A stretch of 44,734 nucleotides of DNA from a virus. Under the pieces are notes generated by a model. The model was given only the letters and a program-made list of their open reading frames with translations. It ran no database searches and had not been told where the DNA came from. The position numbers and the translations under genes are program-made. This document shows positions 622 through 44,734 of the stretch, in pieces. The stretch is taken from positions 1 to 44,734 of IMG/VR virus record IMGVR_UViG_3300028592_000032; one strand, written 5' to 3'. Each line of letters begins with the position of its first letter. Position 1 is the first letter of the stretch.

Positions 622-1620
622 TCAGGTGGGGTAGTGAACCGCCTGGAGGCGGCGGTTGCTGATGGTCATGTTGCCGGCCCATGCCGTGAGCTTCACGACC
701 GCGTCCTGATTGATGGAGAAGCGGTCGGGGTTCAGCGGCACGAAGTTGCGGGCGCGGTGCGGGCGGTACTGGACGTATTTGGTGTTGAGGAACCAGGTGA
801 AGCCAGCGGGCACACCACCGACCGGAACTGGGTCGGTCGAGTAGCCCTGGAAACCGCCGTCGAGCACCACCGGAGCGCCCATGTATTCGAGGGTGATGAA
901 GCCCGCCGAAGCCATGTCCGCGTTGGTGATGCGCTGCAGCGGCTGCATCGACTCGTTGAACAGCCGCCAGTTGGTGTTGTCGCAGACCAGCAGGTCCGGC
1001 TTGTCGGTGCCGCGCACCAGCTGGGGATAAATCGTGTCCCAGTAGCGGCGGATATTGGCCGAGGTCGTTGCAGCGCCACCGTTGGTGATCGAACCGTAGG
1101 TGATGTTGCGCCAGAACTCCCAGCTGTTGGCGTCGATGCCGCCGACCGAGTTGGTCGGGGTGGTCGCCACGAGCTGCTGCAGACCGCCGATCGACTTGGG
1201 GTTGGTGCCGTCCGAGTAGATGCCATAGGCGATGAGCGCCTGGAGCGTGTCCTCGGCGTTCTTCACTCGGCTTTCGACCAGATCGATCATCTGCTCTTCG
1301 CCGGCATTCTGCAGCTCTTCGAGGCCCGAGATGCTGACCGCGACGGCGGCCTGGCGGATCGGGAATTCTGCTGCGGTGAGGATCTGGCTCGGGCTGACGT
1401 TCAGCTGCTCGTAGCCCGAATACCACCCTGCAGTGGAGTTCTGGGCGTATTCGAGTTCCTGCCAGAGGTTGCGACCGCCGGAGAACGGCTTGGCAGTGCC
1501 ACGCTTCATCATGCGGTTCAGAAGCGCGTTGTTGCGGGTAATGTTGTCGGCGGCCTTTTTCGAGCGGTTCTCGATGGTGGTCGCGACAATGTCACCAATC
1601 GAGGGATTGGGGGTTGCCAT
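622..1620 (-). CDS. Major capsid protein (332 aa)
   Basis: The 332-aa product forms the head shell. It begins with a helical N-terminus (MATPNPSIGDIVATTIENRS) and then has the Trp/Tyr-rich beta segments seen in phage coat proteins of the HK97 fold (NLWQELEYAQN near residue 55, WYSGYEQL near 66, MGAPVVLDGGF near 240). It lies immediately downstream of the scaffold gene and two genes from the portal, the usual order for procapsid genes. The start is set by AAGGAAA a few bases upstream of the ATG. The length suits a coat protein without a protease-cleaved delta domain, consistent with a separate scaffold gene and no protease gene. Confidence 0.85.
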   Translation of the reverse strand: MATPNPSIGDIVATTIENRSKKAADNITRNNALLNRMMKRGTAKPFSGGRNLWQELEYAQNSTAGWYSGYEQLNVSPSQILTAAEFPIRQAAVAVSISGLEELQNAGEEQMIDLVESRVKNAEDTLQALIAYGIYSDGTNPKSIGGLQQLVATTPTNSVGGIDANSWEFWRNITYGSITNGGAATTSANIRRYWDTIYPQLVRGTDKPDLLVCDNTNWRLFNESMQPLQRITNADMASAGFITLEYMGAPVVLDGGFQGYSTDPVPVGGVPAGFTWFLNTKYVQYRPHRARNFVPLNPDRFSINQDAVVKLTAWAGNMTISNRRLQAVHYPT

Positions 1621-3572: not shown

Positions 3573-3766
3573 CAGTGCATCGCCTTGCGGGCCTTACGCC
3601 ACGCCTTGTTGAACTCACGCTTCAGGCGGCGGTGATCCCGGCCAGCGAACTCGACAAGCGCACGCATGCCGGCGTACTGGGGCGTCGGTATCAGGATTAC
3701 GTCCGGCGTCGGGTGCTCCAAACTCGCCGTCATGAAGGCATCCACCATTGTCTTGGTAAGCGTCAC
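3572..3766 (-). CDS. Hypothetical small protein after portal (64 aa)
   Basis: A 64-aa protein with a very basic C-terminus (RRLKREFNKAWRKARKAMH), which suggests binding to nucleic acid or to an acidic protein surface. Its ATG overlaps the portal stop codon (ATGA). No family recognised. Confidence 0.55.
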   Translation of the reverse strand: MTLTKTMVDAFMTASLEHPTPDVILIPTPQYAGMRALVEFAGRDHRRLKREFNKAWRKARKAMH

Positions 3767-6189
3767 TTCTTCGCTCCATTCGGTTTCGCCGCCGCCTGCT
3801 GCTTTGCAGCCTGCGCTTTGGCTTCCATGGTCTCTAGTCCGAGTTGATGCTTCTGCTGCTGGGTATCGAGGTCCAGCGAATGCTGTTCACGGCTGGCGCC
3901 CAACTGCATGGCGGTCTCTTCCGCCTTCACCTGGGCCTGCTGCTGCGCGGCGATGGCTTCCATGCCGAGCTTTTCGCGTTCGAGGTTCAACCGCTCGCGC
4001 TCGATCTGGAGTTCGGCCTGCATCTTGGCCATTTCCATCTCGTTGCGCTGGCGCTCCATATCCAGCTCCATCTGGGCCTTCTGCTGCTCAAGCGCGAACT
4101 CCGCCTGCTTGGCCTGCATGTCCACCTGGTGCTCTTCCCGAGCCCTCTGCATCTCCATCTGCTGCTTCTGCATCTCGGCCTGTGCGGCCTGCTGCTCCGG
4201 GCTCGGCTGCGGATTGGCCGCCTGCTCTTCCAGTCGCTCCTTGACCTTCGTCAGCGCGTCCTCGAGCCCGCTCTCCATCGATCGCCCGACACGGAAGCGG
4301 CGGAACGTGAACAGCAGCATATCGCCCACAGGGTCGACCAGCTCTGGCGCTACCTGCACGATCGGCGCAATGGCGTTGATGCCCTGCATCGTGGCGCTGA
4401 ACAGTTCCGTTGCTGCCATCTTGTCGGCTTCCGCATCGGCCTGCAGCGTCGAGTCCGTCTCGATATCGACACGGAAGCCGCGGAGCTTGTCCGAGCGCAG
4501 GATTTCCAGCGCCTTGTCGAACTTAGCCTGTTCTGCCTGCTGGGCCTGCATGGCGGCCTGCTGCTGCATCTGCTGGAACTGGACCTGCATCTGCTGCTGG
4601 GCCGCCTGTTGCGCCTCTGGCGGGGCGCCCTGAAGCTGTTGCTGCAGTTCCGGGGGCATCTGCGGCGGCTTGACCTTGGCAACGGCCTTCTGCACCGCAT
4701 CGGCCATCATCTGGTCAACGCCTGACATCTGTTTCAGGCTCTCGGGGGAGAACATTTCCGAGACGATTTCAGCCATGATGCGCAGCGTCGAGCGGCAGAA
4801 TTCAGCCACCCGGTCCTGACGGTCCTGCAACCGAAGGGCGGCGTACTGGCCCTTGATGCGCTGCTCGGTGGCTGTCTTTGCTGCCCCGCCCGACGCCTGG
4901 CCGCGGACAATGTCCGACATGCCGGTCACCTGATCGAGGTCGTTCTTGACCTGCGCGCGGGCTTCGTAGAGGCGGAGCAGCACCTCTGCGATTTCCTTCA
5001 TCGGCAACAGATCGACCGACCCGGCCATGCCGCCCTTTTCGGCAAACACCGCCCAGCTATCCACCGGGATCAGCTTGTTATCCGTCCCCTCCAGCAGCAG
5101 CCGCGCCAGCGCCGGCACCGAGGCGTCATAGACACCGTTCGCCCGAATGGCCGTCGTGATCTTCGAAATGCGGTTGGTGAGGTCGTCAATTTCCTGCGCC
5201 TGGTCCTGATACTCGACATAGTCGGGCACCGGGATAAGGCTGTCATTGGTCAGCGTGGTGAACAGCGGCTCCGGGCATGGCCAGAAGCCTTCCAGCTTCA
5301 GCACCGGGTCTTTCGTCTCCTTCAGCACCACGCTCGGCGTGCTGGGGGCGATGAAGTAGACCGTCCGGTCAGCCTTGTTCCAGATCTCCCAGATTTCGGC
5401 CTTCTTGAAGTAGCTCAGCGAGCCCTCGGCAAAGGTGCCGTCCGTGTTCCGCATGCGCTGCGGGGTATAGTCCAGCGTGATCTGCTTCGCCTTCTGCAGA
5501 TCGCCGTCATAGAACTTTTCGGCAATCTCGGTGTGGGTCTGCCACGAACGGCGAGCCACCCACGGCACTTCCTGCCAGCACCGCGCGGCGCCCCAGAGGA
5601 AGTCGGTGTAGAACACGTAATCGACGCAGACCCGCTCATAGGCGAGCTTGTCGTAAGGAACGCCGTCGCCCTCTTCCTGAATGTCCTCGGCGGTCTGGTT
5701 CGGGCTTTCGGCCTTCACCTCGCCTTCAACACGCTCGTTCTCGTAGGCCTCTTCCGACGCCTCAAACTGAGGCTCGTAGCGCAGCCAGGTTTGCCCCATG
5801 CCGGGCAGCAGGTAGTCCAGCACCGATTTGCTGACGGACTGGTTGTAGTAGCCCACCTCCATCTGGAATGCGCAGACGCGCTCGAGGATGGTGGATGCCA
5901 GCCGAGCCGCCGGGTCGCGGTCCATGAACCGGCGCTCCACAATGGCCTTGGGCATCTTGCCGTAGACGGCCGGCATGAGCGTCTGCACGTTCGACCACAG
6001 GATATTCATCTTGCGGCGGAGCATGTCGGCTTCGTTGCGCTCGTCGCGGTAGCGCTTGACGATCTTCTCCGAGCGGGTCAGCCACTCGACGTATTTCGGG
6101 TCCTTCTGCGCGAAGTCGAGTTCTGCCTTCCACCGGGCAAAGGTCTCTCGTACCCGCGCTTGCGCGTCTGGCATGATGGCAGTGGCCAT
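3763..6189 (-). CDS. Portal protein, P22 type (808 aa)
   Basis: This is the dodecameric ring at the packaging vertex, through which DNA enters and leaves the head. The 808-aa length, the N-terminal region (RYRDERNEADMLRRKMNILW, then LMPAVYGKMP) and the core (QDQAQEIDDLTNRISK, GMSDIVRGQASGGAAKTATEQ) match P22-type portals, which are much longer than siphophage portals. From about residue 500 to the end the chain is an extremely Gln/Glu/Met/Ala-rich coiled coil, equivalent to the long barrel helix that runs into the head in P22. The start ATG is preceded by GGGGACG. Confidence 0.9.
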   Translation of the reverse strand: MATAIMPDAQARVRETFARWKAELDFAQKDPKYVEWLTRSEKIVKRYRDERNEADMLRRKMNILWSNVQTLMPAVYGKMPKAIVERRFMDRDPAARLASTILERVCAFQMEVGYYNQSVSKSVLDYLLPGMGQTWLRYEPQFEASEEAYENERVEGEVKAESPNQTAEDIQEEGDGVPYDKLAYERVCVDYVFYTDFLWGAARCWQEVPWVARRSWQTHTEIAEKFYDGDLQKAKQITLDYTPQRMRNTDGTFAEGSLSYFKKAEIWEIWNKADRTVYFIAPSTPSVVLKETKDPVLKLEGFWPCPEPLFTTLTNDSLIPVPDYVEYQDQAQEIDDLTNRISKITTAIRANGVYDASVPALARLLLEGTDNKLIPVDSWAVFAEKGGMAGSVDLLPMKEIAEVLLRLYEARAQVKNDLDQVTGMSDIVRGQASGGAAKTATEQRIKGQYAALRLQDRQDRVAEFCRSTLRIMAEIVSEMFSPESLKQMSGVDQMMADAVQKAVAKVKPPQMPPELQQQLQGAPPEAQQAAQQQMQVQFQQMQQQAAMQAQQAEQAKFDKALEILRSDKLRGFRVDIETDSTLQADAEADKMAATELFSATMQGINAIAPIVQVAPELVDPVGDMLLFTFRRFRVGRSMESGLEDALTKVKERLEEQAANPQPSPEQQAAQAEMQKQQMEMQRAREEHQVDMQAKQAEFALEQQKAQMELDMERQRNEMEMAKMQAELQIERERLNLEREKLGMEAIAAQQQAQVKAEETAMQLGASREQHSLDLDTQQQKHQLGLETMEAKAQAAKQQAAAKPNGAKK

Positions 6190-6192
6190 GGG

Positions 6193-8565
6193 CTACGTCC
6201 CCGACATCATGATTACCCAATTGGTACCGTTGCTCACCAGTACGCACCACGCCCCGATGGTGGCTGGGAGCATTGCTGTAGTCGTAGTTGCGCCGCCCTT
6301 TTGCACCACGTTCGCTGACGCCGAAATGGTTGTCTGCGCCTGGTAGCTCTGGAACATAATTTCACGACCCAAATAGCTGGCGGCAGCGGGCAGCGTGACC
6401 GTGCAGCTCGATCCTGATTTGTTGTTGATCAACCAGTTTTCAGTGTCAGCAACCGTGAAGTTGGCCGTTTTGGTGACCGGCGCGCCGCGGCCGGCGTTGC
6501 CATAGAGCCGCTGCGTCGGTCCGTCCATAACGCGACCGGATGCAGGCGCCGAGCCAGCGGTGAACGCGCCAACCGACCCCTTGGCATTTCCGGATACCTG
6601 GACGTTCGTAACGCCAGTGCCGAGCACAATGCAATTGCCGATGGAATTGAAGTAGTTGCCTTCGATGACGATCCCATCAGCGTTGTTGGCGATATTGATG
6701 CCTTCGTTGCCGCTGTTGGAGGCCCCCTGCAGCACACACCCGGTGACGACCAGCCCTTTACCCTGAAAGACGATAAGCTGACCGCCGGTCACGGTGGCGT
6801 CACCCGACCAGCAATTGATGAGCGACAGGTTCAGTGCGTCCTCGGTGCATGAGATTGCAGCCTGATAGCCCGCGTTATTGTTCCCCTCAAACGTGCAATT
6901 TACGAATGCCCAAGCCTCGCCGGGATTGTAAACGGGATAAGTGTTGCCCGCACTGGACGGCTGGAAATTACAACTGATGAAATTCATCACGTTGGAAAAA
7001 CCATTGCCGCCGCCAGCGGTATTTCGGCCCCACACCAGCGGGCTCTGGCCCGCAAAATTGCAGTGCTCGAACAGCCCTCGCGTCGCTCCATCCAAACTTA
7101 ATAGATGCATGGAACTGGCTGTACCGGTGGCAAAGAAACTGCACCGCACGAAGTGCATGAATACACTGTCGGTGTTGAGGCCCCCCGCGTTACGCGCGAA
7201 GTCAAACGCGTTCCCCGCATTGGCGCTGAAGATGAAGTCTATGTTCTCCCACGTAGCGCCCATCGAAGACCGACAGTCGATCACAATGCTGGCCGCGCTC
7301 GAGCTGCGCCAAATGCAGGCAGACCCCGCGCCAGCGTTCAGCCCCCCCGTGCCCACAAAATGAATATCAACGCTGTCGCTCATATCCAGCGTGGTGAAGA
7401 CCACATTGCCGGAGATGTAGACGGTGCCACCGTTGCCCAAACTGAGTGCCGTCGCCAGCGCCGGGATAAAGTCGATAAGAGCTTGTAACGCCGTGGTCTG
7501 GTTCGTTCCATCGCCAGCTACCCCAAACCACGAGGCGGTATAGGTGCTGGCTTGGTGGACCCTCACCCACGCGCCGCTCGCGCCGGTAGGCGCCGAGGCG
7601 GGAGCGACGTAGATGCCCTGCTGTGTATCGATCGTTACCAGGGCCGAGAGGTTGGAGCCGTTCCAAACGAACACGCCCTCGCGCCCCGCCTCCTTGAGGA
7701 TCGCAACGCTGTCCTTGGTAGTGTCGAGAGCCGCCAGTGCAGCTCGGTTCGCAACGTACGGCCCCGTATCCAGATAGTTCCGAACGTCAGCCGCCGGATC
7801 AAGCGCTACGATGGGGTTCTCTGGGTCGGTCGCGTCGACATCAATCCCTGTGCCCGCGACGACTGTTTCCACCCCGCTGGGCGGCACCGTCGCAGAGACA
7901 ATCGGGTTCTGCGGGTCGGTCGCATCAACGGTGATGTTCGCGCCCGCGACGATGGCCGCCACAGCGCCAACGTCGGTTGCGTCAAGCGATGCATTGCCCG
8001 TCTGACCATTAACCGAAACAACGCCCGCATTGATGACGACGGGGTTCTGCGGGTCTGTGACATCGACTGAGATGCCCGTGCCGCCCGATACAGACAGGAC
8101 GCCGTCGTTCGATACAACCGGATTGTCGGGGTCGGTGTTGTCTACGTTGATGCCAATGCCGGCAACGACGCTCTCGATGCCCCCGCCGCCCTCACCGCTC
8201 GGCATCGATACCCAGCGGCCTTCCTCAACCCGCATGAACACGCGGGCCAGGTCGGTTTCGATCTCTACGGATGCATCAACCGCGTTGGCATCGATCGTGT
8301 CGCCAACCGGCGGGAAGATCAGCGCCGTCTCTGCCGTCGTGTTCAGCAGGAAATACTCTTGGAAGAACTCTGCCTCTGCCGGGAGCCTGAACGCAGTATC
8401 CCCAGCGCTCGTGCCCATTGCGACGTTGGTCTGCGTCGGCAGCAGCTCGGTAGCGCTGTCCTGCGTCGTGCCGTTGCCGTCGAGCGGTACGCGGTCCTCA
8501 TAGCCAAGCCGGTTGGCCTGTTCGGCTGGAATGCCGACAGCCATGAGGGTTGTAGCGAGCGTCAT
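6193..8565 (-). CDS. Tailspike, beta-helix receptor-binding protein / probable depolymerase (790 aa)
   Basis: This is the trimeric adsorption protein, with four visible parts. Residues 1-122 are an anchor domain homologous over its full length to the separate 124-aa virion protein at 43557-43931. Residues about 130-255 carry four copies of a TDP-x-NPxV repeat. Residues about 330-690 have the regular spacing of short beta strands and Asn/Gly turns of a right-handed parallel beta-helix, like pectate-lyase-fold spikes that cut surface polysaccharide. The last ~90 residues (KTANFTVADTENWLINNKSG onward) form a beta-rich tail common in phage fibres. It lies between the portal and a polysaccharide-lyase-like gene. 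The catalytic residues and substrate cannot be read from sequence alone. Confidence 0.8.
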   Translation of the reverse strand: MTLATTLMAVGIPAEQANRLGYEDRVPLDGNGTTQDSATELLPTQTNVAMGTSAGDTAFRLPAEAEFFQEYFLLNTTAETALIFPPVGDTIDANAVDASVEIETDLARVFMRVEEGRWVSMPSGEGGGGIESVVAGIGINVDNTDPDNPVVSNDGVLSVSGGTGISVDVTDPQNPVVINAGVVSVNGQTGNASLDATDVGAVAAIVAGANITVDATDPQNPIVSATVPPSGVETVVAGTGIDVDATDPENPIVALDPAADVRNYLDTGPYVANRAALAALDTTKDSVAILKEAGREGVFVWNGSNLSALVTIDTQQGIYVAPASAPTGASGAWVRVHQASTYTASWFGVAGDGTNQTTALQALIDFIPALATALSLGNGGTVYISGNVVFTTLDMSDSVDIHFVGTGGLNAGAGSACIWRSSSAASIVIDCRSSMGATWENIDFIFSANAGNAFDFARNAGGLNTDSVFMHFVRCSFFATGTASSMHLLSLDGATRGLFEHCNFAGQSPLVWGRNTAGGGNGFSNVMNFISCNFQPSSAGNTYPVYNPGEAWAFVNCTFEGNNNAGYQAAISCTEDALNLSLINCWSGDATVTGGQLIVFQGKGLVVTGCVLQGASNSGNEGINIANNADGIVIEGNYFNSIGNCIVLGTGVTNVQVSGNAKGSVGAFTAGSAPASGRVMDGPTQRLYGNAGRGAPVTKTANFTVADTENWLINNKSGSSCTVTLPAAASYLGREIMFQSYQAQTTISASANVVQKGGATTTTAMLPATIGAWCVLVSNGTNWVIMMSGT
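7807..8166 (-). repeat. Tandem repeats in the tailspike stalk (TDPxNPxV units)
   Basis: Four degenerate units of about 18 residues, pattern V(V/S)-x-G-x-x-I-x-V-D-x-TDP-x-NP-x-V, occur at spike residues about 134-151, 160-177, 206-223 and 236-253. At DNA level they are visible as repeated gtcgg-gtcg stretches. They sit between the anchor domain and the beta-helix, so they probably form an extended linker or stalk. Repeats like these can expand or contract by recombination and so alter spike length. Confidence 0.7.
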
Positions 8566-8583
8566 TGCGTAGCTGTCTCGCTT

Positions 8584-9453
8584 TTACACTGGATCTGGGT
8601 TCAGTATCTTACTGCTGAGGTCCGTAAGGCCCCAGCGCATGTTCGATGTGGTCACGGCGGCCGGGAGGCTTGACCGCTTTCGGTAGAGCCCCCACTGCAA
8701 CTGCGCGAGGTCGCCCGCAAAGTTGTAGTAGCCGATTGGTGCGGCGACATTGACGATTTCGACGCCACCCCGCCACACCTGAAGCGCACCAGACTGTCCC
8801 AGCACGATGCGGCAGACGTAGTTCACCGGGCCAGCCGGCAACACGTCCGCGAACCTTGTCTTGGCAACTGCGAAGCCGCCAGAATACTCAGCGTCCGATC
8901 GAGTGGTGATCTTGAAGCCGTTATTGCCGTAGTCGAACGCTATCGGTGGCGACAGCGCGCTGGGGTTGCTGGTATCGATCGCCTGCCACTGAGAGAATAT
9001 TCCCCATCCGCCTTGCTGCACCTGTTCAAAGCCGTCGCGAACATTGATCTCAGTCGTCCATGACTGCCAGATTTCAACTCCAGCGCCATATCGATCCTGC
9101 GACCCAGCGAACTCCGACCTCTGGTCTGTCGCCGTATCGTCACCGCCGCGCACCTCGAAACGGTGCCCAGAGTTGGTCGCCTGCAATGACCATTTGCTGT
9201 CGTCTGCAGTGATCCTCGCTCGCTTACCGTCGACAAGGATGTACTCGCCGGTCACGGGGACAGAGGCGAAATTGCCCGCCGCTACTACTGATCCCTGCTG
9301 CAATACCGGCCAATGTTCTTCATGCGCCGGGTCAACGAGCGTGACCTCCGAGCACCCGTGGCGCCCGTCCGTAAGCAGCCGGGGGCGGATGACATGCGCG
9401 GGGTTGTGACTGACACGCACTTGGAGCATCTGCGCGCTGGTGAGTGCCAGCAC
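8584..9453 (-). CDS. Probable polysaccharide lyase, heparin-lyase-I-like jelly roll (289 aa)
   Basis: This 289-aa protein has a concanavalin-like beta-sandwich pattern. Motifs resemble polysaccharide lyases of the heparin lyase I / PL20 type: RFEVRGGD (98-105), QRSEF (111-115), FSQWQ (153-157) and, near the end, LQWGLYRKR (252-260). It would cut acidic polysaccharide of the host capsule or slime. It has no signal peptide, so it is probably carried on the virion. The start is GTG right after the stop of the upstream 265-aa gene. It is unusual for a podophage to encode this beside a beta-helix spike. An inactive carbohydrate-binding lectin is the main alternative. Confidence 0.6.
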   Translation of the reverse strand: MLALTSAQMLQVRVSHNPAHVIRPRLLTDGRHGCSEVTLVDPAHEEHWPVLQQGSVVAAGNFASVPVTGEYILVDGKRARITADDSKWSLQATNSGHRFEVRGGDDTATDQRSEFAGSQDRYGAGVEIWQSWTTEINVRDGFEQVQQGGWGIFSQWQAIDTSNPSALSPPIAFDYGNNGFKITTRSDAEYSGGFAVAKTRFADVLPAGPVNYVCRIVLGQSGALQVWRGGVEIVNVAAPIGYYNFAGDLAQLQWGLYRKRSSLPAAVTTSNMRWGLTDLSSKILNPDPV

Positions 9454-10251
9454 TTAGGCCGCCCCGATGGCCTGCAGATAAGTCTGGAGTGGTGTGTAGG
9501 CTGCCGCCACCTCACCAGCCGTGAGGTTTGAGCCGAAGTGCGCCGTTGCGATCTGGTTCACGCCAAAGGAGCCGTCACGGCTGCGCAGAAGAGCGAATGT
9601 CGTGTTGATCGGGGCTGCGCTCGCGGTTGTGCCGCCTCCGCTATCAACGCCTTGTGCGTACCCCTCCCATATGGCGGCGGCCGATCTGGTCCAAGCCGCG
9701 TATCCGGGATAAACGCCACTTCCGATTACCTGCCCCGACGCCGCATTTGGCCTCGTGGCGCCTCGGCCTGAAAGCGAAACAGCCCGCGAGATGTAGCTGT
9801 TTGACGAGCCCATGTCGAAGCTATCGCCCGCGCCATTCGGCAGATTGGTCCGCGCCCAAAGTGCTTGGTGCGCGCTGTCCTGCACGAACTTGGGCGAAGA
9901 TGCCGTCGTCGGGTTGAAGCTCGTCTCGAGGTAGCTCGTCGCCCCGTCGCCGGTATAGCCGCGATCTGCCACGAAGGCCGGGGAGTTGACCGCAGTCAGG
10001 TTGTAGGACGTAGACACCCAGTTGAGCAGCGACGACTGCGCATCGGCCGCAGCCAGCATGTAGAACGCATCGAGCTTCGACCAAACACCTGCGGTGACCA
10101 GCGAGCCGATCAGCGTATTGATCAGCACCATGCGCGTAAGCGTTGGCGGGGTCGTGAACCTGGCAAACAGCGCCAACGACTCCGGCAGGAACGCTACACC
10201 GCCGCCGGCAATGCCCGTTCTCAGCCGGTTGCCCTGGACCTTCCGAAGCAT
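9454..10251 (-). CDS. Putative virion/tail-associated protein (265 aa)
   Basis: A 265-aa protein with a helical first third (TLTRMVLINTLIGSLVTAGV, then KLDAFYMLAAADAQSSLLNW) and a beta-rich, Ser/Gly/Thr-rich remainder that looks like a LamG/concanavalin-type sandwich. It lies in the block between terL and the tailspike with other adsorption-type proteins, so it is probably a tail-fibre or receptor-binding subunit. No catalytic motif can be claimed. It is separated from the previous gene by three bases. Confidence 0.5.
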   Translation of the reverse strand: MLRKVQGNRLRTGIAGGGVAFLPESLALFARFTTPPTLTRMVLINTLIGSLVTAGVWSKLDAFYMLAAADAQSSLLNWVSTSYNLTAVNSPAFVADRGYTGDGATSYLETSFNPTTASSPKFVQDSAHQALWARTNLPNGAGDSFDMGSSNSYISRAVSLSGRGATRPNAASGQVIGSGVYPGYAAWTRSAAAIWEGYAQGVDSGGGTTASAAPINTTFALLRSRDGSFGVNQIATAHFGSNLTAGEVAAAYTPLQTYLQAIGAA

Positions 10252-10254
10252 CGG

Positions 10255-10545
10255 CTATTCGCCGTCGCCGCGCGTGAAATACAGCGTTGTAGAGGTCGTC
10301 CCGATGGCCGCAACGTGAGTGACATCGGCAGCGATCGTGAACACCTGCACAGTGCCAGGCAGGATCGGCGTGTCTGTGACAGCGGCAGTGACAGAGCTGG
10401 TGCCGAACTTAATGAAGGCAATCGTGTTGCCGGCGGCGCTGGTGACCATAACCTGCAGGCCGCCGCCGGCTCCAAGCGCCACGCTTGCCGACGAGCCAGT
10501 AACCGCACGCGACACAGTCGCGCCCGGAGTAAAGGGGTTCATCAT
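10255..10545 (-). CDS. Small beta-rich virion protein (96 aa)
   Basis: A 96-aa protein made almost entirely of Ala, Val, Thr, Ser and Gly with alternating hydrophobic residues, suggesting a single beta-sandwich domain. Similar small proteins sit near spike and decoration genes. Ribosome binding site is AAGGAT; two adjacent ATG codons (10545 and 10542) are possible starts. It is the first gene after terL. Its role is unknown, but a structural or adsorption function is likely from context. Confidence 0.5.
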   Translation of the reverse strand: MMNPFTPGATVSRAVTGSSASVALGAGGGLQVMVTSAAGNTIAFIKFGTSSVTAAVTDTPILPGTVQVFTIAADVTHVAAIGTTSTTLYFTRGDGE

Positions 10546-10556
10546 GGGATTGATCC

Positions 10557-11906
10557 TTAGATGCGGTTGCTCTGCTGCGGAGCGGCTGCGTAAACGTCTT
10601 CAAGGCTCAGGGTATTGCCGGGACCGACCTCGAGATGGCGGGGCTTCTCGGCTTCAGTAGGAGGCGGTACTTCCTGCATGCGCTGGCTGCCATAGGCGTA
10701 GCTGTCGCCCGGGTGAGAGGCCCAGTTGTGCAGCGGCTCGCGGGAGAACACGTTGTTGTCCTCGTTCCACTCGAATTCCCATGCGCCGAGACCATCAAGG
10801 CCAGCCTCGCACCGCTCTTTGTGGAACTCGCAGCGATCGATGACATCGCGCGCCGAGCTGATCTGGTCTGCCTTCTTCGATGGCGGGATGACGCCGATGT
10901 GCTGCACGCCGAACTTGGCGATGAAGCGCTCAACCGTCGTATGCTTGGACTGGAACGTCTTGGCCTTCGCATCTGGCGGAAGCCAGATCTTGCCCAGCCT
11001 GGCTAATGGTACGCCCCACTCAGCCATTTTGGCCTGCAGCTCGGGCGCCCAGTCGTCTGCATCCATCCCGGATGCGCCAACATAGCCGAGGAGCGAAAAG
11101 CCCTTGATCTTGCGCTGCCACAGCCACCACGACGCAGTATCGTGAAAGCCAATGTCCGATGACCACTCGACGTTGATGCCAGAGGGGTCGAACACCACGC
11201 TGTTGTTGATGCGGCCGTCGCGCTCTGCCTTGTTCACCCATCGAGCGAGGATTGCGCCTTGCCCCGCACCATAAGCGCCGTTCCAGACGTGCTCGGCTTT
11301 GTCAGGGTCGGCTGCGAAGTCCGCCAGCATGTCCTTGTAGAGCGGCGTATCCTTGAACCAAGGGTTGTCCGACCAGTTGATCGGAACGGCGATTGCACCC
11401 TCAGGCAGCCGCTTGCGGAAGAAGATATCGACCGGGTCGGTCTTGTATCGAGGGTTCCAACTGAACCACAGTTCCGAGCCGTCCTTACGCATCGTCGGGC
11501 GCAGGAGATCGAGACTGTGCTGGGACAGCGTCTGCGCTTCCTCCACCCAGGCTATGTCGTAGGCCTCGAGCGACTTGATATTGGCCGCGTTGTAGGACTG
11601 CATGCCCTTGAAGATGATCAGCGAGCCGTTGGGCCCGCGTATCTCCTGCTCGAGCACGTCGAACTCGCTCTCCAGCCCGAGCTTCGAAATCTTGTCGCTG
11701 AGTAGCTGCTTGACCGAGTCCTTGATGGAGTTCTGGATCTCACGAATGCACACGCCGCGGGTTGGCGACATGAAGCACCGGAGGATCATCTGCTCTGCGA
11801 AGAAGTGTGACTTGGCGCCGCCGCGACCGCCGTATGCCCCTTTGTAGCGAGCCGGCTGCAGTAGCGGCTTCAGCTTGCGCGGGACTTCAACCCTCAGCGT
11901 CGACAA
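10557..11906 (-). CDS. terL: Terminase large subunit (449 aa)
   Basis: This is the packaging motor ATPase and nuclease. Walker A is GGRGGAKS (residues 26-33), the Walker B/catalytic segment is YDIAWVEEA (116-124), and the coupling motif is FSWNP (148-152). The nuclease half contains SSDIGFHDT, which provides an acidic metal-binding residue. The overall pattern is that of the PBSX/Terminase_3 family at its usual length (~450 aa). It overlaps terS by 20 bases. This family is often used by headful (pac) packagers, in keeping with the circularly closing contig. Confidence 0.92.
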   Translation of the reverse strand: MSTLRVEVPRKLKPLLQPARYKGAYGGRGGAKSHFFAEQMILRCFMSPTRGVCIREIQNSIKDSVKQLLSDKISKLGLESEFDVLEQEIRGPNGSLIIFKGMQSYNAANIKSLEAYDIAWVEEAQTLSQHSLDLLRPTMRKDGSELWFSWNPRYKTDPVDIFFRKRLPEGAIAVPINWSDNPWFKDTPLYKDMLADFAADPDKAEHVWNGAYGAGQGAILARWVNKAERDGRINNSVVFDPSGINVEWSSDIGFHDTASWWLWQRKIKGFSLLGYVGASGMDADDWAPELQAKMAEWGVPLARLGKIWLPPDAKAKTFQSKHTTVERFIAKFGVQHIGVIPPSKKADQISSARDVIDRCEFHKERCEAGLDGLGAWEFEWNEDNNVFSREPLHNWASHPGDSYAYGSQRMQEVPPPTEAEKPRHLEVGPGNTLSLEDVYAAAPQQSNRI

Positions 11907-39685: not shown

Positions 39686-40567
39686 TTAGCTCATCACCTT
39701 GTCGTAGTTCACCATCATGAAGCCGCCAGGCCCGCGCTTGACGGCGTCTGGCCGCTCCTTCTTGGCCTCTTGTGCAATGACCCCGAGCTGCATCATGGGG
39801 GAGCCCTTGTAGCGGTAGCTTTTTATCGGAATGCCGTCCTCGGTGCGCTGGCCGGTCGAGTGAACGTCGGTCTTCAATCGCTCGTCAGAGAACAGCCAGC
39901 CGCCCACCGATTTGCCGATGTTGCCGATTGCACCCCAAGTGTCTGCGTAATTCTGGCTGTCTGCCGCGTACTTCTGACCGACAAGCGAACTGTAGTCGGT
40001 TGGGGCCACGCCGGCCTGCGGCGTCGGGGCGTTCATTTGGTTGCCGCCGAGCATCGCGTTCATTTCGTTCAGCGGCTGGTTGCGGCCCTGCAGCAGCTCG
40101 GAGATCGCCTGATTGCGACCACCCAGCGCCAACTGGTTCCACTGGTCGTTCTCGCCTTCGCTCACCGCACGCATGGCACGGTCATAGGCCTCTGTGCCGG
40201 GGCGCACGCCGCGGTTCATCAGCGACTGTTCGGTAGACACCCGGCGCTGCTCGAGCATCGGGTTGACCCGCTTGCTCGACAGGTCCATCAGGCGGCTCTC
40301 GATGGCGTCCGTGTCCATCGTGAAGGGCTGAGACAGAGTGCCCAGCGTGTTGTCGACAACGCTCTGCGCCTGCCCGTTCAGCGCCGTGGTCTGCCCGTAT
40401 TTCGGCGTGCCGTCCGGGTTGGTGCCGATCTGCTTGTAGGTGGTCGAGCCCAGCGGCCCGGTCTGGTCCACCATGTTCATGTTCTGCTGGGCAATCGCAG
40501 TGTCTTTGTTCATCTGCGTCTGCGCCTGCGCAGTCTTCATCGGGTCGGGCATCTTGGGTGCGTTCAC
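39686..40567 (-). CDS. Internal/tail virion protein with S74-like C-terminal motif (293 aa)
   Basis: Starts at GTG (40567) with GGAGAC upstream; a longer frame overlaps the previous gene and is not needed. The body is Gln/Asn-rich and helical (MDLSSKRVNPMLEQRRVSTE). The end has SDERLKTDVHSTGQRTEDGI, GSPMMQLGVIAQEAKK and PDAVKRGPGGFMMVNYDKVM, the signature seen in the peptidase S74 chaperone and in related non-cleaving virion proteins. It is probably an assembly or ejection protein; self-cleavage cannot be decided. Confidence 0.6.
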   Translation of the reverse strand: MNAPKMPDPMKTAQAQTQMNKDTAIAQQNMNMVDQTGPLGSTTYKQIGTNPDGTPKYGQTTALNGQAQSVVDNTLGTLSQPFTMDTDAIESRLMDLSSKRVNPMLEQRRVSTEQSLMNRGVRPGTEAYDRAMRAVSEGENDQWNQLALGGRNQAISELLQGRNQPLNEMNAMLGGNQMNAPTPQAGVAPTDYSSLVGQKYAADSQNYADTWGAIGNIGKSVGGWLFSDERLKTDVHSTGQRTEDGIPIKSYRYKGSPMMQLGVIAQEAKKERPDAVKRGPGGFMMVNYDKVMS

Positions 40568-40568
40568 G

Positions 40569-40985
40569 TCAGGTCTCCAACCACTTGCCGGCATGCTCTC
40601 TGAACAAGACGTAGCAGAGCGCGTCATCGCCCTTCTCGGGCCCGTAATAGCGTTTCTGGACGCCCTCGAATTGAAACCCGGCCTTGGGCAGCAGTCGGCG
40701 GACAATGGTGTTCCTGCGCGCCGTACGAGCCGTGAGCCGAGATGCATCGCAGTGGACGAACGAGAACTGCATGATGGCCTTCTGCACCCGCCAGGTGAGC
40801 ATGCCGGGCCCCACCAGCGTCATTTCGATGTTGCCGCCGTGGTAGTGCTCATTGAAGATCACCGCGCCACACAGCGTCTCGCCATCGACAACGCCCATGG
40901 CCTTGAAGGGGCGCTGGAAAGTCACACCGAGCTGAGCACCGGCCCAGCCAGCAACTTCCTCGTCGTATCCAAACACCGGCTGCAT
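40569..40985 (-). CDS. GNAT-fold acetyltransferase-like protein (138 aa)
   Basis: Acetyltransferase (GNAT) fold: beta-rich start with FKAMGVVDGETLCGAVIFNE, central MTLVGPGMLTWRVQKAIMQF and C-terminal RNTIVRRLLPKAGFQFEGVQ, the usual acetyl-CoA-binding helix and final strand. Such genes are frequent among tail and head genes of podophages, where they may modify a host or virion protein, but the substrate is not known. It overlaps the gp10-like gene by one base. Confidence 0.65.
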   Translation of the reverse strand: MQPVFGYDEEVAGWAGAQLGVTFQRPFKAMGVVDGETLCGAVIFNEHYHGGNIEMTLVGPGMLTWRVQKAIMQFSFVHCDASRLTARTARRNTIVRRLLPKAGFQFEGVQKRYYGPEKGDDALCYVLFREHAGKWLET

Positions 40986-42583
40986 CAGATGAACGCGCCC
41001 GTGTCGTAGATCATGTCAAAGCCGTTGACCTTCAGTGCTCGAGCCGACAGGAGGTCTGCCGACCAAGGGATGCTGACGGTCATTCGCACCGAGGCGCAGT
41101 AACCGAGGCCGCCGATCGAGAACCAGTTGGCCTGCGTCGAAACGCCGGGCCACTGCGCCTCGTCCCATATGGCGCTGTCCCAGAGAGCCACGGCTGCCCC
41201 GCTGTCGAACTCCACTGGGGACAGTTCGGCATTCTCGCCAAAGTCCACGTTGAGCCCGATGAACGGCTGCACCGGGAAAGTCGCGTCAATGGTGATAGAG
41301 GGCCGGATCATCGTCCAGCGCTTTTCCCGACCGCGCGCGCCGTAGTAGTTGAACGAGCAGCGCATGTCGGCCTCAAGCGTCTGGTTCTGGTCGCCCCCTG
41401 CCTCATCCGCCAGCCTGACAATGCCGTCATTGCCGCCGAAGTACGCCCGGTCCTCGAATATCTCCCAGCAGGAGCCGTTTTGCCCGACGAACCGCCCCCA
41501 GGCGCCGGTAATGGTGTTCATCACGAACTGGTCCTGCGTCGTGTTCTCGACTGCCGGGACATTCAGAATGGCCATAGTGTTGCGGGGGTAGCTGATGAGC
41601 TGCCAGCCGAAGAACTCGGAATAGTTCTGGGCGGCGTCCGTCATCGCCTGACGAATGTTCTTGGTTACCGAGGCGCCGAGCAATGCCGCCTTGTCGTAGC
41701 TCAGCACCTGCGAAAGCGGCAGGACGCCATCAATGGTGATGATGCCGAGGTCTGAGCCGATCTTGCAGAGGCACCGACGCCCGATCGGCGTCGAAAGCGA
41801 GGCCGTTCCCCGAAAGAAAATGGTGCTGGCGTCGGTCGGGTCCTCGATCTGATAGACCGCCACGTCCCCGAACTGCGAAATGAACGCGATGAACTCGTTC
41901 GGCCCATCGTTGGTGTCGGTGGACCACGTGCCGATGGCCTGCAGATAGCCACCGTTGCGGAAGTTGGCGCCCACATCGAACGCCACAGCTGCGCCCTGAA
42001 TGCTGTCCGCCGGCAGGTAAGCCGCTTCCGTCGAGTCCTTCAGCACCGTCCACAGCCGGGAGCGGTACACCGTGACCGCCACCATGTCCTCGGGCGTCAC
42101 GCCGGTAATGACCAGGGGCGCCAGTGCCGCTCCGTCCCAGTATTGCGGCGTGTCCTCGCCATTGCACATCCAGAGGAACGAGCCGCCGGAAGTGATGAAG
42201 TTGGTATGCTGCCAGCGGTTGGAGGTGAAGCCAGAGCCTACTGAGGCGACAGTGGACGTGCTGACATCGAAGATCTCGCCATCAGAGGCGGCGAACAGCG
42301 CGTTCAGGCTGGCGTCTGCTGCTTGGTAGGCCATGACGGTTTCCACCGGCAGGCCTGTCCCAGTGTCGGCGTGCTCGATGAACCCGCGGCGCAACTCGAC
42401 ATAGCCGGGCTGGGGGAACCAGTTGACCAGCGCGATAGCGTTCTGAGGCGGCATTGCTGCGATAGGCGAGATGGCATCCCAGCCGCCTACAGGGGATGGG
42501 ATGGACGAGCCTTGCGCCACGTTCGCCGCGGACATGGAAGGACGTCCGCTGGTGCGGTTGCGCATGAGCGACGTGTTGCGCAT
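40985..42583 (-). CDS. P22 gp10-like tail hub / DNA stabilisation protein (532 aa)
   Basis: Beta-propeller-type tail accessory protein that plugs the portal and carries the spikes. Evidence: GGWDAISPIAAMPPQNAIAL and LVNWFPQPGYVELRRGFIEH near the start, then repeated W/F-G-containing beta blades, with a final beta region (MTVSISWSAD-like) at the end. Size and neighbourhood fit the gp10 class. The start at 42583 is near alternative ATGs at codons 7 and 17. Confidence 0.75.
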   Translation of the reverse strand: MRNTSLMRNRTSGRPSMSAANVAQGSSIPSPVGGWDAISPIAAMPPQNAIALVNWFPQPGYVELRRGFIEHADTGTGLPVETVMAYQAADASLNALFAASDGEIFDVSTSTVASVGSGFTSNRWQHTNFITSGGSFLWMCNGEDTPQYWDGAALAPLVITGVTPEDMVAVTVYRSRLWTVLKDSTEAAYLPADSIQGAAVAFDVGANFRNGGYLQAIGTWSTDTNDGPNEFIAFISQFGDVAVYQIEDPTDASTIFFRGTASLSTPIGRRCLCKIGSDLGIITIDGVLPLSQVLSYDKAALLGASVTKNIRQAMTDAAQNYSEFFGWQLISYPRNTMAILNVPAVENTTQDQFVMNTITGAWGRFVGQNGSCWEIFEDRAYFGGNDGIVRLADEAGGDQNQTLEADMRCSFNYYGARGREKRWTMIRPSITIDATFPVQPFIGLNVDFGENAELSPVEFDSGAAVALWDSAIWDEAQWPGVSTQANWFSIGGLGYCASVRMTVSIPWSADLLSARALKVNGFDMIYDTGAFI

Positions 42584-42586
42584 CGG

Positions 42587-43534
42587 TCAGGGGTTCCCTG
42601 GGCCTGGGAAATTGCCATCTTGGATGTTCTGCGGGCCGAGCAGGTAGTTCTCGCCGCGGGGAATGCCGAGCGTGAGGTCTGCTGCTCCACCGTCACGGGC
42701 CATGAGCCGAGCGACGTAGTCGTTGCTCTCCGCCTGCATGGCCCCGTATTCGAAGCCCTTGGCGGCCCACAGGCGCCATTTGACGGCCAGAATGATGGCC
42801 TGAGCGTCGATCACCGGATAGTCTGTGTCCGCGGTGAATTTCTCCTTGCGGATGCCGAGCGCATCGGCCGCCCAGTATTTCGAGTTGTACTCGAACACCA
42901 TCGTAGCCGGATACTCGCCGGTAGCCGTAGGAGGGGGCCACAGGCGCCAGTTGGTCGGCTCAACGCCGATCTGCCGCCAGCGACGCCGAGGCCCGATAGT
43001 GACGATGCCCGAGCGCTCCCACTGGTCGGCCTGAGGCGACATGGGGCCGATCAGTTCCCAGTGGTTGGTCCGGTCCCACATGGTGCGGTTGGCGAACCAC
43101 TTGAACTCGGGCGGAACGTTATAAGTGTCCTGCGCGAAGATCAGATCGGCCCCGACCAGTGTTTCGGTGGCATACATATCCACTTCGATGGTGGTGGCGT
43201 CGACCACCTCCACCACGCGGGTAGACTGCTGCAGCTGATTGCCGGAGACCGCCCACGAGCCCGCAACGATGCCGGCCGTGGACGGGATGTTGGAGATGGT
43301 CCCGGAGCCCGAGGTCACGTCGCCCGTTGTCGTGATCGGGCTGCCGATCTCCACGATGTGCTGGGCCTGCGACACGATCCAGGGGTGAGCCTGATAGATC
43401 TCATCCCCGGAGCGGTTCGCAAGCGCCAGGATTTGCCGGGCAGTGACGTTCGAATTGCCGACGATCGAGCCAAGGCTGGGAAGCGCTAGCTCGTTGACCA
43501 CCGACTGGCCGATGTCGAGTAGTGTCGTGGGCAT
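42587..43534 (-). CDS. Head-tail connector / tail tube A-like protein (315 aa)
   Basis: Connector attached to the portal (gp4-like, tail tubular protein A-like). It has a helical N-terminus (QSVVNELALPSLGSIVGNSN, then NRSGDEIYQAHPW), a beta-rich middle, and the typical VPPEFKWFANRTMWDR, WPPP, and FEYNSKYW motifs of this group. The C-terminal helix region (AIILAVKWRLWAAKGFEYGA) is as in family members. It is four bases from the gp10-like gene. Confidence 0.75.
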   Translation of the reverse strand: MPTTLLDIGQSVVNELALPSLGSIVGNSNVTARQILALANRSGDEIYQAHPWIVSQAQHIVEIGSPITTTGDVTSGSGTISNIPSTAGIVAGSWAVSGNQLQQSTRVVEVVDATTIEVDMYATETLVGADLIFAQDTYNVPPEFKWFANRTMWDRTNHWELIGPMSPQADQWERSGIVTIGPRRRWRQIGVEPTNWRLWPPPTATGEYPATMVFEYNSKYWAADALGIRKEKFTADTDYPVIDAQAIILAVKWRLWAAKGFEYGAMQAESNDYVARLMARDGGAADLTLGIPRGENYLLGPQNIQDGNFPGPGNP

Positions 43535-43556: not shown

Positions 43557-43931
43557 TCAGGCAGCGAGGAACGAAACCCAGCGGGTTGCCGACTTGCGGA
43601 TGAACAGCCGCGTCAGGTTGATCGCGATCGACACCGAGGCGTCGGCCGCAGCGGCGTTGATGGCGCCGCCACTCGGGGGGAAGATCAGCGCCGCGTCAGA
43701 GGTGGAGTTGGTGACCGAATACGGCACCTCCAACTCAGCATCCGAGGGGAGCACGAACGCCGTCTGCCCCGAGGCTGTGGTCGCGAGGACGTTGTTGGTC
43801 TGGGCGGGGATGGCCTTGCCGCCTACCTGCGCAGTGCCGACACCGGCAAGCGGGGTGAGGGCGGTGAATCCGAGACGAGTGGCCTGCTCTTGCGGCAGGC
43901 CAACGCCCATGAGGTCTACAGCAAGGGACAT
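43557..43931 (-). CDS. Virion protein homologous to the tailspike anchor domain (124 aa)
   Basis: Aligns over its full length with residues 1-122 of the tailspike: both start with a short helix ending GxPxEQAxRLG(F/Y), share PTQTN/PAQTN, ALIFPP, DASVxI, and end RxFxR...RWVS. The stand-alone copy is probably an adapter or decoration protein at the vertex or tail. The shared domain implies the spike uses the same binding surface or came from fusion with a duplicate. Confidence 0.7.
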   Translation of the reverse strand: MSLAVDLMGVGLPQEQATRLGFTALTPLAGVGTAQVGGKAIPAQTNNVLATTASGQTAFVLPSDAELEVPYSVTNSTSDAALIFPPSGGAINAAAADASVSIAINLTRLFIRKSATRWVSFLAA

Positions 43932-43935
43932 AGCC

Positions 43936-44535
43936 TTACTCCTTGGTTTTCGGGGTTTTGTCGGCGGTCTCGAGCGCCCGGAGGCGTTCGCCCATCGACT
44001 TGATGAGATCTTCCTGCTCGATGCGCTTCAGCTCCGACTCCTCGAGCCGGCTTTCGAGCGCATGGAAGCCCTTGCCTTTCTCGACGCCTTCGAGGAATTC
44101 GGCCGCCTTCTTGCGGTAGTCGAAGAGGAACGGGATCTTGGTCAGGCTGCTGTCTGCAACCGTCACCAGGGCCTGCACGGTCCAGATGTGGTTCGCCTGC
44201 AGTGTGCTGACGATTTCGGGGTTCTTCGGGAACAGCACGCCGAGCGGCGTACCATCCTGCACCTGCTCCATGCCGCGCTGGTATTGCTCCCAGGCGTGGG
44301 GGAAACGGCGCTTCTCGTTGTCGGTGACTTCCAGAATGGTGGAGTCACGCTCACCGACCTGGCGGATTTCCACGAAGTCGACAGCCTTGGCGACGGGTGC
44401 GCCCTGCTGCTGGGACTGGAAGAAGTCCGTCTTCTGGCCACGGTAGAAGCGAGCGAATACCTGGTTTTCTTTGCCCCCCCAGCCGCGGCCGTCGTGGCCG
44501 GTGGCAGTGGTGGACATGTCGAAGTCAAGGCTCAT
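43936..44535 (-). CDS. Virion-operon protein with C-terminal coiled coil (199 aa)
   Basis: The first 150 residues are compact and polar (AWEQYQRGMEQVQDGTPLGV, then IPFLFDYRKKAAEFLEG); the last 45 form a coiled coil (LEESELKRIEQEDLIKSMGE). It is made between the 173-aa decoration-type gene and the adapter gene. Similar proteins are found in alphaproteobacterial podophages, function unknown. Its first codons also appear at 1-29. Confidence 0.6.
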   Translation of the reverse strand: MSLDFDMSTTATGHDGRGWGGKENQVFARFYRGQKTDFFQSQQQGAPVAKAVDFVEIRQVGERDSTILEVTDNEKRRFPHAWEQYQRGMEQVQDGTPLGVLFPKNPEIVSTLQANHIWTVQALVTVADSSLTKIPFLFDYRKKAAEFLEGVEKGKGFHALESRLEESELKRIEQEDLIKSMGERLRALETADKTPKTKE

Positions 44536-44734
44536 GTGGGTTGCTCCAGAAATGGGAAAGGGGCGCCGAAGCGCCCCTCAGGATCAGTTGGTGGTGCCGA
44601 CAGTCGGCCAGTTGAGGTAACCGGGGGCCGTACCGGCCGAAGCAGCGCGCGCCGTGGTGAGCCACATGCCCGTGATGTTATTGGTCGGGTTGGCCACCGC
44701 GTCGTCAAGCTGACCGGCGGTAACGGTGGAGGCG
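44507..44734. repeat. Terminal direct repeat, right copy
   Basis: Repeats 1-228 with one substitution (A at 44680 versus C at 174). Contains the start of the 199-aa gene, the UUCG hairpin (44557-44578) and, at 44584-44734, the 3' part of the 173-aa gene. The mismatch changes a Lys codon to Asn in that gene. Confidence 0.9.
44584..44734 (-). CDS. 3' part of the 173-aa virion protein (complete copy at 78-599)
   Basis: The right-hand copy of the decoration-type gene is cut by the window end. It encodes the same C-terminus, except Asn replaces Lys in the NPTKNITG segment (A44680/C174). Confidence 0.75.
   Translation of the reverse strand, partial: ASTVTAGQLDDAVANPTNNITGMWLTTARAASAGTAPGYLNWPTVGTTN

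Follow-up and report, generated by a model that had tools for sequence, protein, structure and literature searches.

Two forms of one domain in a single genome

This locus raises the question of how a protein of 124 residues and the front of a much larger spike came to carry the same domain in one viral genome, and what that domain does in the particle. The first-pass annotation had proposed that the spike evolved by fusion of a depolymerase to a copy of a vertex protein. We followed this up in the window, i.e., the whole 44,734-nt stretch of IMG/VR record IMGVR_UViG_3300028592_000032. Its ends (1-228 and 44507-44734) repeat each other over 228 bp apart from one mismatch (C at position 174, A at position 44680), perhaps a strain variation or an assembly error. 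Given this end repeat, the molecule is a 44,506-bp circle or is circularly permuted.

The virion genes lie on the minus strand. From the terminase end, the order is terminase, a 96-aa protein, two cargo genes, spike and portal, followed by two small genes, scaffold, capsid, a 173-aa protein, p199, the small protein (which we call DOM), adaptor and nozzle. This is the podoviral order of phage Mx8. The main genes are:

10557..11906, minus strand: terminase large subunit (phrog_3717, E 6e-51)
6193..8565, minus strand: spike, 790 aa, directly upstream of the portal gene (open reading frame; weak fold matches to tailspikes)
3763..6189, minus strand: portal (phrog_12082, E 1e-184)
622..1620, minus strand: major capsid protein (phrog_9953, E 3e-98)
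43936..44535, minus strand: p199, 199 aa, adjoining DOM; counterpart of Mx8 p50 by position (gene order)
43557..43931, minus strand: stand-alone DOM, 124 aa (124-codon frame in the list of open reading frames; homologues of 76%, 56% and 51% identity at the same gene position in relatives; strong Shine-Dalgarno-like AAGGAG upstream)
42587..43534, minus strand: neck adaptor, SU10_adaptor-like, tail tube A (PF24175, E 7e-5, just under the curated cut-off; phrog_6013, E 1e-27)
40985..42583, minus strand: probable nozzle / stabilisation protein, from gene order (phrog_5107, labelled amidase in PHROGs; a relative is annotated 'phage stabilization protein')

The capsid protein is 42% identical to that of Mx8 and 49% to that of Bradyrhizobium phage ppBjS10J-1 (97-99% coverage), a range of 42-49% that includes Stenotrophomonas phage BUCT555, and the adaptor is 28% identical to Mx8 p51 over 55%. 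With homologous capsid and adaptor genes in the Mx8 order, the window carries a Mx8/Pr-like structural module. The Mx8/Pr lineage has kinship with the P22 and LUZ24 modules (PMC10386132).

Two further genes of this module drew our attention. The product of the gene in ejection position (39686-40747, minus strand; phrog_4287, 'DNA ejection protein') has at its end a Peptidase_S74 chaperone domain, normally found in tail fibres (Pfam E 3e-7, above the cut-off). Between the nozzle and ejection genes lies a GNAT-type acetyltransferase gene (40569-40985, minus strand), and a gene similar to it or so annotated occupies the same spot in L004, L010, ppBjS10J-1, BUCT555 and RHph_I3_18.

Homology of DOM and the spike front

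The two proteins were divided into the following parts:

43866..43931, minus strand: DOM N-terminal arm, residues 1-22, MSLAVDLMGVGLPQEQATRLGF (conserved above the core)
8200..8565, minus strand: DOM copy within the spike, residues 1-122 (identity to DOM; pLDDT mostly 91-97 for residues 31-120)
8500..8565, minus strand: spike N-terminal arm, residues 1-22, MTLATTLMAVGIPAEQANRLGY (14/22 identical to the DOM arm)
7771..8199, minus strand: spike linker, residues 123-265, low-complexity repeats (...GTGI.VD.TDP.NP.V...; direct reading; pLDDT mostly <50)
7435..7755, minus strand: spike residues 271-377, module common with rhizobial phage fibres (tblastn)
6586..7446, minus strand: spike body, residues 374-660, predicted beta-helix-like (model strands; Beta_helix match in L006)
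6211..6498, minus strand: spike C-terminal domain, residues 690-785 (identity to a segment of a DSL-LC05 protein)

In a local alignment, DOM matches spike residues 1-120 over its whole length, with 60 of 121 columns identical and two single-residue gaps. The score of 267 (BLOSUM62) compares with a mean of 31 (SD 5.7) for 2000 shuffles, a z of about 41, which bears out the end-to-end homology noted in the first-pass annotation. The two copies share 47-50% identity (47% in the family alignment), and at the DNA level 71% identity is still detectable across 97 bp. Comparisons with relatives gave a dN/dS of ~0.1-0.27, indicating purifying selection on both copies. The distance of about 20 kb originally given for them needs correction, as the starts lie 9.1 kb apart through the junction of the circle and the gene edges ~6.8 kb apart.

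Predicted fold

Structural models of DOM (pLDDT 73) and of the domain in the spike (mostly pLDDT 91-97) contain the same helices and strands in the same order. The different folds that had been named as counting against the proposal were thus not found, in a comparison that the overlapping alignments behind the two models make a weak test. The top Foldseek matches were the N-terminus of TSP4 (7rej), CpaA (6o38) and StcE (4dny), often at high probability and with E-values of 2e-3 to 1 (the best, 1.7e-3, came from the small protein; those from the spike exceeded 0.05). The same set, together with T4 gp9 and gp10, has been listed as relatives of the TSP4 XD1 fold (PMC8825819). As these E-values are weak, we treat the apparent resemblance of the modelled DOM core to the XD1/gp9-like beta-sandwich of T4 and CBA120 baseplate and tailspike proteins as a lead.

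A sequence search of the PDB with the DOM profiles returned no credible match to a solved XD1/gp9-like member. Hits to designed WD-40 repeat proteins (profile A1) and, from E 0.004 and across the domain junction, to Fab light chains (profile A4) were taken as chance or composition.

Cores lacking the N-terminal arm turn up in L120-L122 as small proteins encoded next to DUF2213, in the fibres of L123 and L127 at a central or terminal position, and in L125 as the front of a 323-aa protein whose gene adjoins a capsid gene. This recurrence among head proteins and fibres of other phages means that an anchor cannot be told by its fold alone. The arm-less cores that adjoin capsid or DUF2213 genes in unrelated phages (L125:1417-2388, L120:1498-2079) possibly belong to a wider family of head-surface proteins.

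Distribution of the stand-alone and fused forms

A search of 50,697 phage records for direct relatives of DOM returned none, two distant members of the family gave no convincing relatives in the phage records, and a first contig scan with a domain pattern found no relative. As domain searches yielded so few relatives, we fetched loci by portal similarity instead, obtaining 80, and built a DOM profile from 12 members that was refined to 26. Scanning these 26 members against PHROGs and Pfam gave best E-values of 0.0038 and 0.026, respectively, each in one member. The family is absent from both databases and is undescribed.

Besides the window, the profile detected DOM in about 18 related phages or prophages, either as a stand-alone protein of 118-131 aa or in a longer form. 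Its usual order is p199-DOM-adaptor-nozzle, the p199 gene being the post-capsid one. Variants include two tandem DOM genes in L011 (10001-10794), a single protein with two DOM units in L073 (7583-8362), DOM between portal and scaffold in L075, L076 and L078, and DOM upstream of the terminase in L104. L012 has a 294-aa form at the usual place, where an extension of ~170 residues sits on the stand-alone locus itself. A 316-aa protein of Ruegeria phage 45A6 occupies the DOM slot and was set aside, giving no match to the DOM model. Mx8, BUCT555 and ppBjS10J-1 have no detectable DOM gene.

The search for the domain at the N-terminus of other phages' spikes and fibres, proposed in the first-pass annotation, was successful in L006 (933 aa), L009 (374 aa) and the fragment L007, so that together with the window the fused spike occurs in four loci only. 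It sits between terminase and portal wherever both are in view, and L007 ends inside the spike. L004/L025, L008, L010, L029 and L068 carry DOM as a stand-alone gene, with none in the terminase-portal interval. For L068, the stand-alone form lies within a 510-kb contig of Rhizobium sp. BK251, presumably in a prophage. One DOM each, and no second, was found in the whole virus records behind L004, L008, L010, L029 and L030, and the whole host genomes of L068 and L104 likewise hold one copy each. Among the relatives, the terminase-portal interval (6193-10545 in the window) is a variable cargo site: in the window it holds the spike plus two other genes, in L010 a 253-aa protein and in MW202489 a phoD-like phosphatase.

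Direction and age of the fusion

To place the fused copies, we used a maximum-likelihood tree of the 26 domains, which is unrooted and for which the root was inferred. The four spike copies form one clade with support of 100/100, so that on this tree the fused form has a single origin. An arrangement in which the canonical stand-alone proteins form a clade without the spikes was rejected (AU p = 0.006), while for the six nearest stand-alone proteins the tree is undecided whether the spikes are their sister group or lie among them (p = 0.23). A midpoint drawing puts the spikes among the stand-alone proteins. This nesting makes fusion onto the small protein the likelier direction; the spike would then have come about when a new body was joined to a part that the phage already had. 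The first-pass proposal of a spike made from a copy of the small protein is strengthened by the nested clade and by the stand-alone copies in many relatives without a fused spike; its term 'vertex protein', like the place in the virion that the term implies, fares less well, drawing only on gene order and fold analogy.

The identity between spike DOM copies tracks that between portals (82 and 78% for the window and L006, 58 and 60% for the window and L009). Such tracking fits an old fusion that would have been passed on together with the portal and, in several relatives, lost or replaced. The L007 spike gene lies behind a different terminase, so that horizontal movement or terminase exchange occurs as well.

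The N-terminal arm

Between spikes and canonical stand-alone proteins, arm residues 1-22 share a mean identity of 54%, compared with 32% for the core, a contrast seen in 48 of 48 pairs. In L009, the two copies agree at 13/22 arm residues and at 19/96 core positions (p = 3e-4). The contrast is weaker in the window (p = 0.064) and in L005/L006 (p = 0.058), neither being significant alone, and arm conservation is also high among the stand-alone copies. Helices are predicted in the spike arm at residues 2-9 and 14-20 (pLDDT ~66). Judging from this conservation, docking is probably the role of the first ~22 residues; the occurrence of arm-less cores elsewhere makes the arm, rather than the sandwich, the better candidate for that role.

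Different bodies on one anchor

The spikes of the window and L006 are ~84% identical over residues 1-160, ~50% identical up to residue 360 and ~28% identical beyond. Counting this low-similarity pair of predicted beta-helix-type spikes and the 374-aa fibre of L009, a short protein matching tail-protein families, three different distal bodies are borne by the DOM anchor. Parts of the window spike recur elsewhere: residues 271-377 are 37-42% identical to the tail fibre of Rhizobium phage 16-3 and to phage RHph_X2_24 (tblastn), and the C-terminal 96 residues resemble part of a DSL-LC05 protein annotated as sialate O-acetylesterase (61.5% identity) as well as stretches of unrelated, DOM-less proteins (46-55%). 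As the bodies differ or their modules recur, the anchor behaves as an exchangeable front part. The earlier idea of a docking module for exchanging receptor-binding parts is thus upheld as far as the three bodies go, and has to be narrowed in that the core fold is not specific to anchors.

The body itself was modelled poorly, as repeated short strands (pLDDT ~50-72) with weak matches to tailspikes. The window spike gave no Pfam match below E 1, and its relative in L006 matched Pfam Beta_helix at E 4.7e-5, below the curated cut-off. These predictions agree with a beta-helix, and a depolymerase role is putative. The DOM domain was also sought at the spike C-terminus, where hhalign gave no significant match (probability 0.7%, E 0.09).

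A model for the origin of the spike anchor

We consider it reasonably probable that DOM is a conserved virion part whose copy, fused to the spike body, anchors the spike. This reading builds on the homology of the two copies, their co-occurrence in one genome, the wide spread of the stand-alone form, the single origin of the fused one, the different bodies and the same predicted fold. In Mx8/Pr-like podoviruses, DOM would be a conserved part of the virion, probably a trimer, built of a ~22-residue N-terminal arm and a ~100-residue XD1/gp9-like beta-sandwich, with the arm presumably plugging into a site in the neck or head. An ancestor of part of the group would have gained a copy of the DOM gene in the terminase-portal cargo interval, joined in frame, if the direction is right, to a spike body. 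Arm and sandwich would have been retained in this copy as its anchor, on which distal bodies have since been replaced, and both forms may dock at the same or an equivalent site.

Co-divergence as a guide to the partner of DOM was best with the adaptor (Spearman 0.62) and was discarded: the adaptor gene is adjacent, the differences are small and the L004 portal entry is a fragment. The capsid spike of Pa223 was likewise dropped as a guide to location, being LUZ24 gp49 by sequence, encoded elsewhere and without detected sequence similarity to DOM. A more specific scheme, which we regard as rather unlikely, is that DOM fills symmetric sites for which the fused spike competes with the same arm, so that a virion would mix plain and spike-bearing units in a ratio set by expression, and new spikes would enter by fusing to the arm.

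Other explanations assign the two forms different roles or a different history. DOM could sit on the virion as an adapter onto which the matching domain of the spike stacks, in the manner of K1-5 gp37, a short adapter that bears the two receptor-binding proteins of that phage. Short adapters akin to the fronts of receptor-binding proteins in other phages have been described (PMC6872550), and related beta-sandwiches often meet along a common three-fold axis (PMC8825819). However, the stand-alone protein is common in relatives without a fused spike, the spike retains an arm of its own and the two cores in L009 are only ~20% identical, so that we think this arrangement unlikely. More doubtful still is the reverse history, in which the spike form came first and the small protein was left behind when a spike shed its body. 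Loss of the distal part was favoured for K1-5-type adapters in a study that also allows the opposite path (PMC6872550), and the unrooted DOM tree could be rooted on the spike branch. Against this, the stand-alone protein reaches far relatives, with portals ~30-36% identical, whereas the fused form occurs in four close loci only, and the spikes fall among the stand-alone proteins both in the midpoint drawing and by the AU test.

The domain might also be a generic trimerisation bead whose front position is incidental, the spike attaching otherwise. Its use as an apparent spacer in XD1-containing proteins (PMC8825819) is in line with this, as are the arm-less cores in fibre middles and ends and in small head-module proteins. 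Yet every fused spike has the domain at its extreme N-terminus, with the arm intact and best conserved. Podoviral spikes, moreover, generally attach by their N-terminus, as in T7 and Peru-2, and the P22 spike does so too. We regard a bead without docking role as decidedly improbable, and retain the anchoring copy of a virion part as our reading.

Comparison with known systems

Fusion of structural domains onto receptor-binding proteins is already known, and the DOM spike is a clear new case. Recombination has mostly hidden how receptor-binding proteins acquired their virion anchors; here the two forms persist together in one genome, the fused form has a single origin on the tree, and the path from small protein to spike anchor is favoured, a direction that is supported though not proven. 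DOM thereby offers annotators a marker for anchors in Mx8-like podoviruses, and its 22-residue arm is a testable docking element.

The predicted fold of DOM may be like that of CBA120 TSP4 XD1 and T4 gp9/gp10, which is used both in stand-alone baseplate proteins and near the front of tailspikes, XD domains being common to T4 gp10 and TSP4 (PMC8825819). We found no sequence similarity to them, and they belong to myovirus baseplates, whereas DOM would act in a podoviral neck or head. TSP4 also has a separate beta-helical anchor domain before XD1, unlike the window spike. The short adapter gp37 of K1-5 and SP6, with its T4 gp10-like domain, is another short stand-alone protein related to the fronts of receptor-binding proteins; whether short adapters came from spikes or spikes from short adapters was left open (PMC6872550). 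There, the adapter carries separate spikes via short peptides, whereas here both forms hold the whole domain and arm in one genome. In KP36 fibres, a domain of a structural protein has likewise moved to the front of a receptor-binding protein, in that case a different domain, from a siphovirus distal tail protein. The Pa223 capsid spike (PDB 9ny6, LUZ24 gp49), a head spike of a related podoviral lineage, gave a weak fold match, but its gene lies at the far end of the module. With the Mx8/Pr-like structural module (PMC10386132), the window shares the gene order of capsid, p199-position gene and adaptor, but not the DOM gene, which was not detected in Mx8, BUCT555 and ppBjS10J-1.
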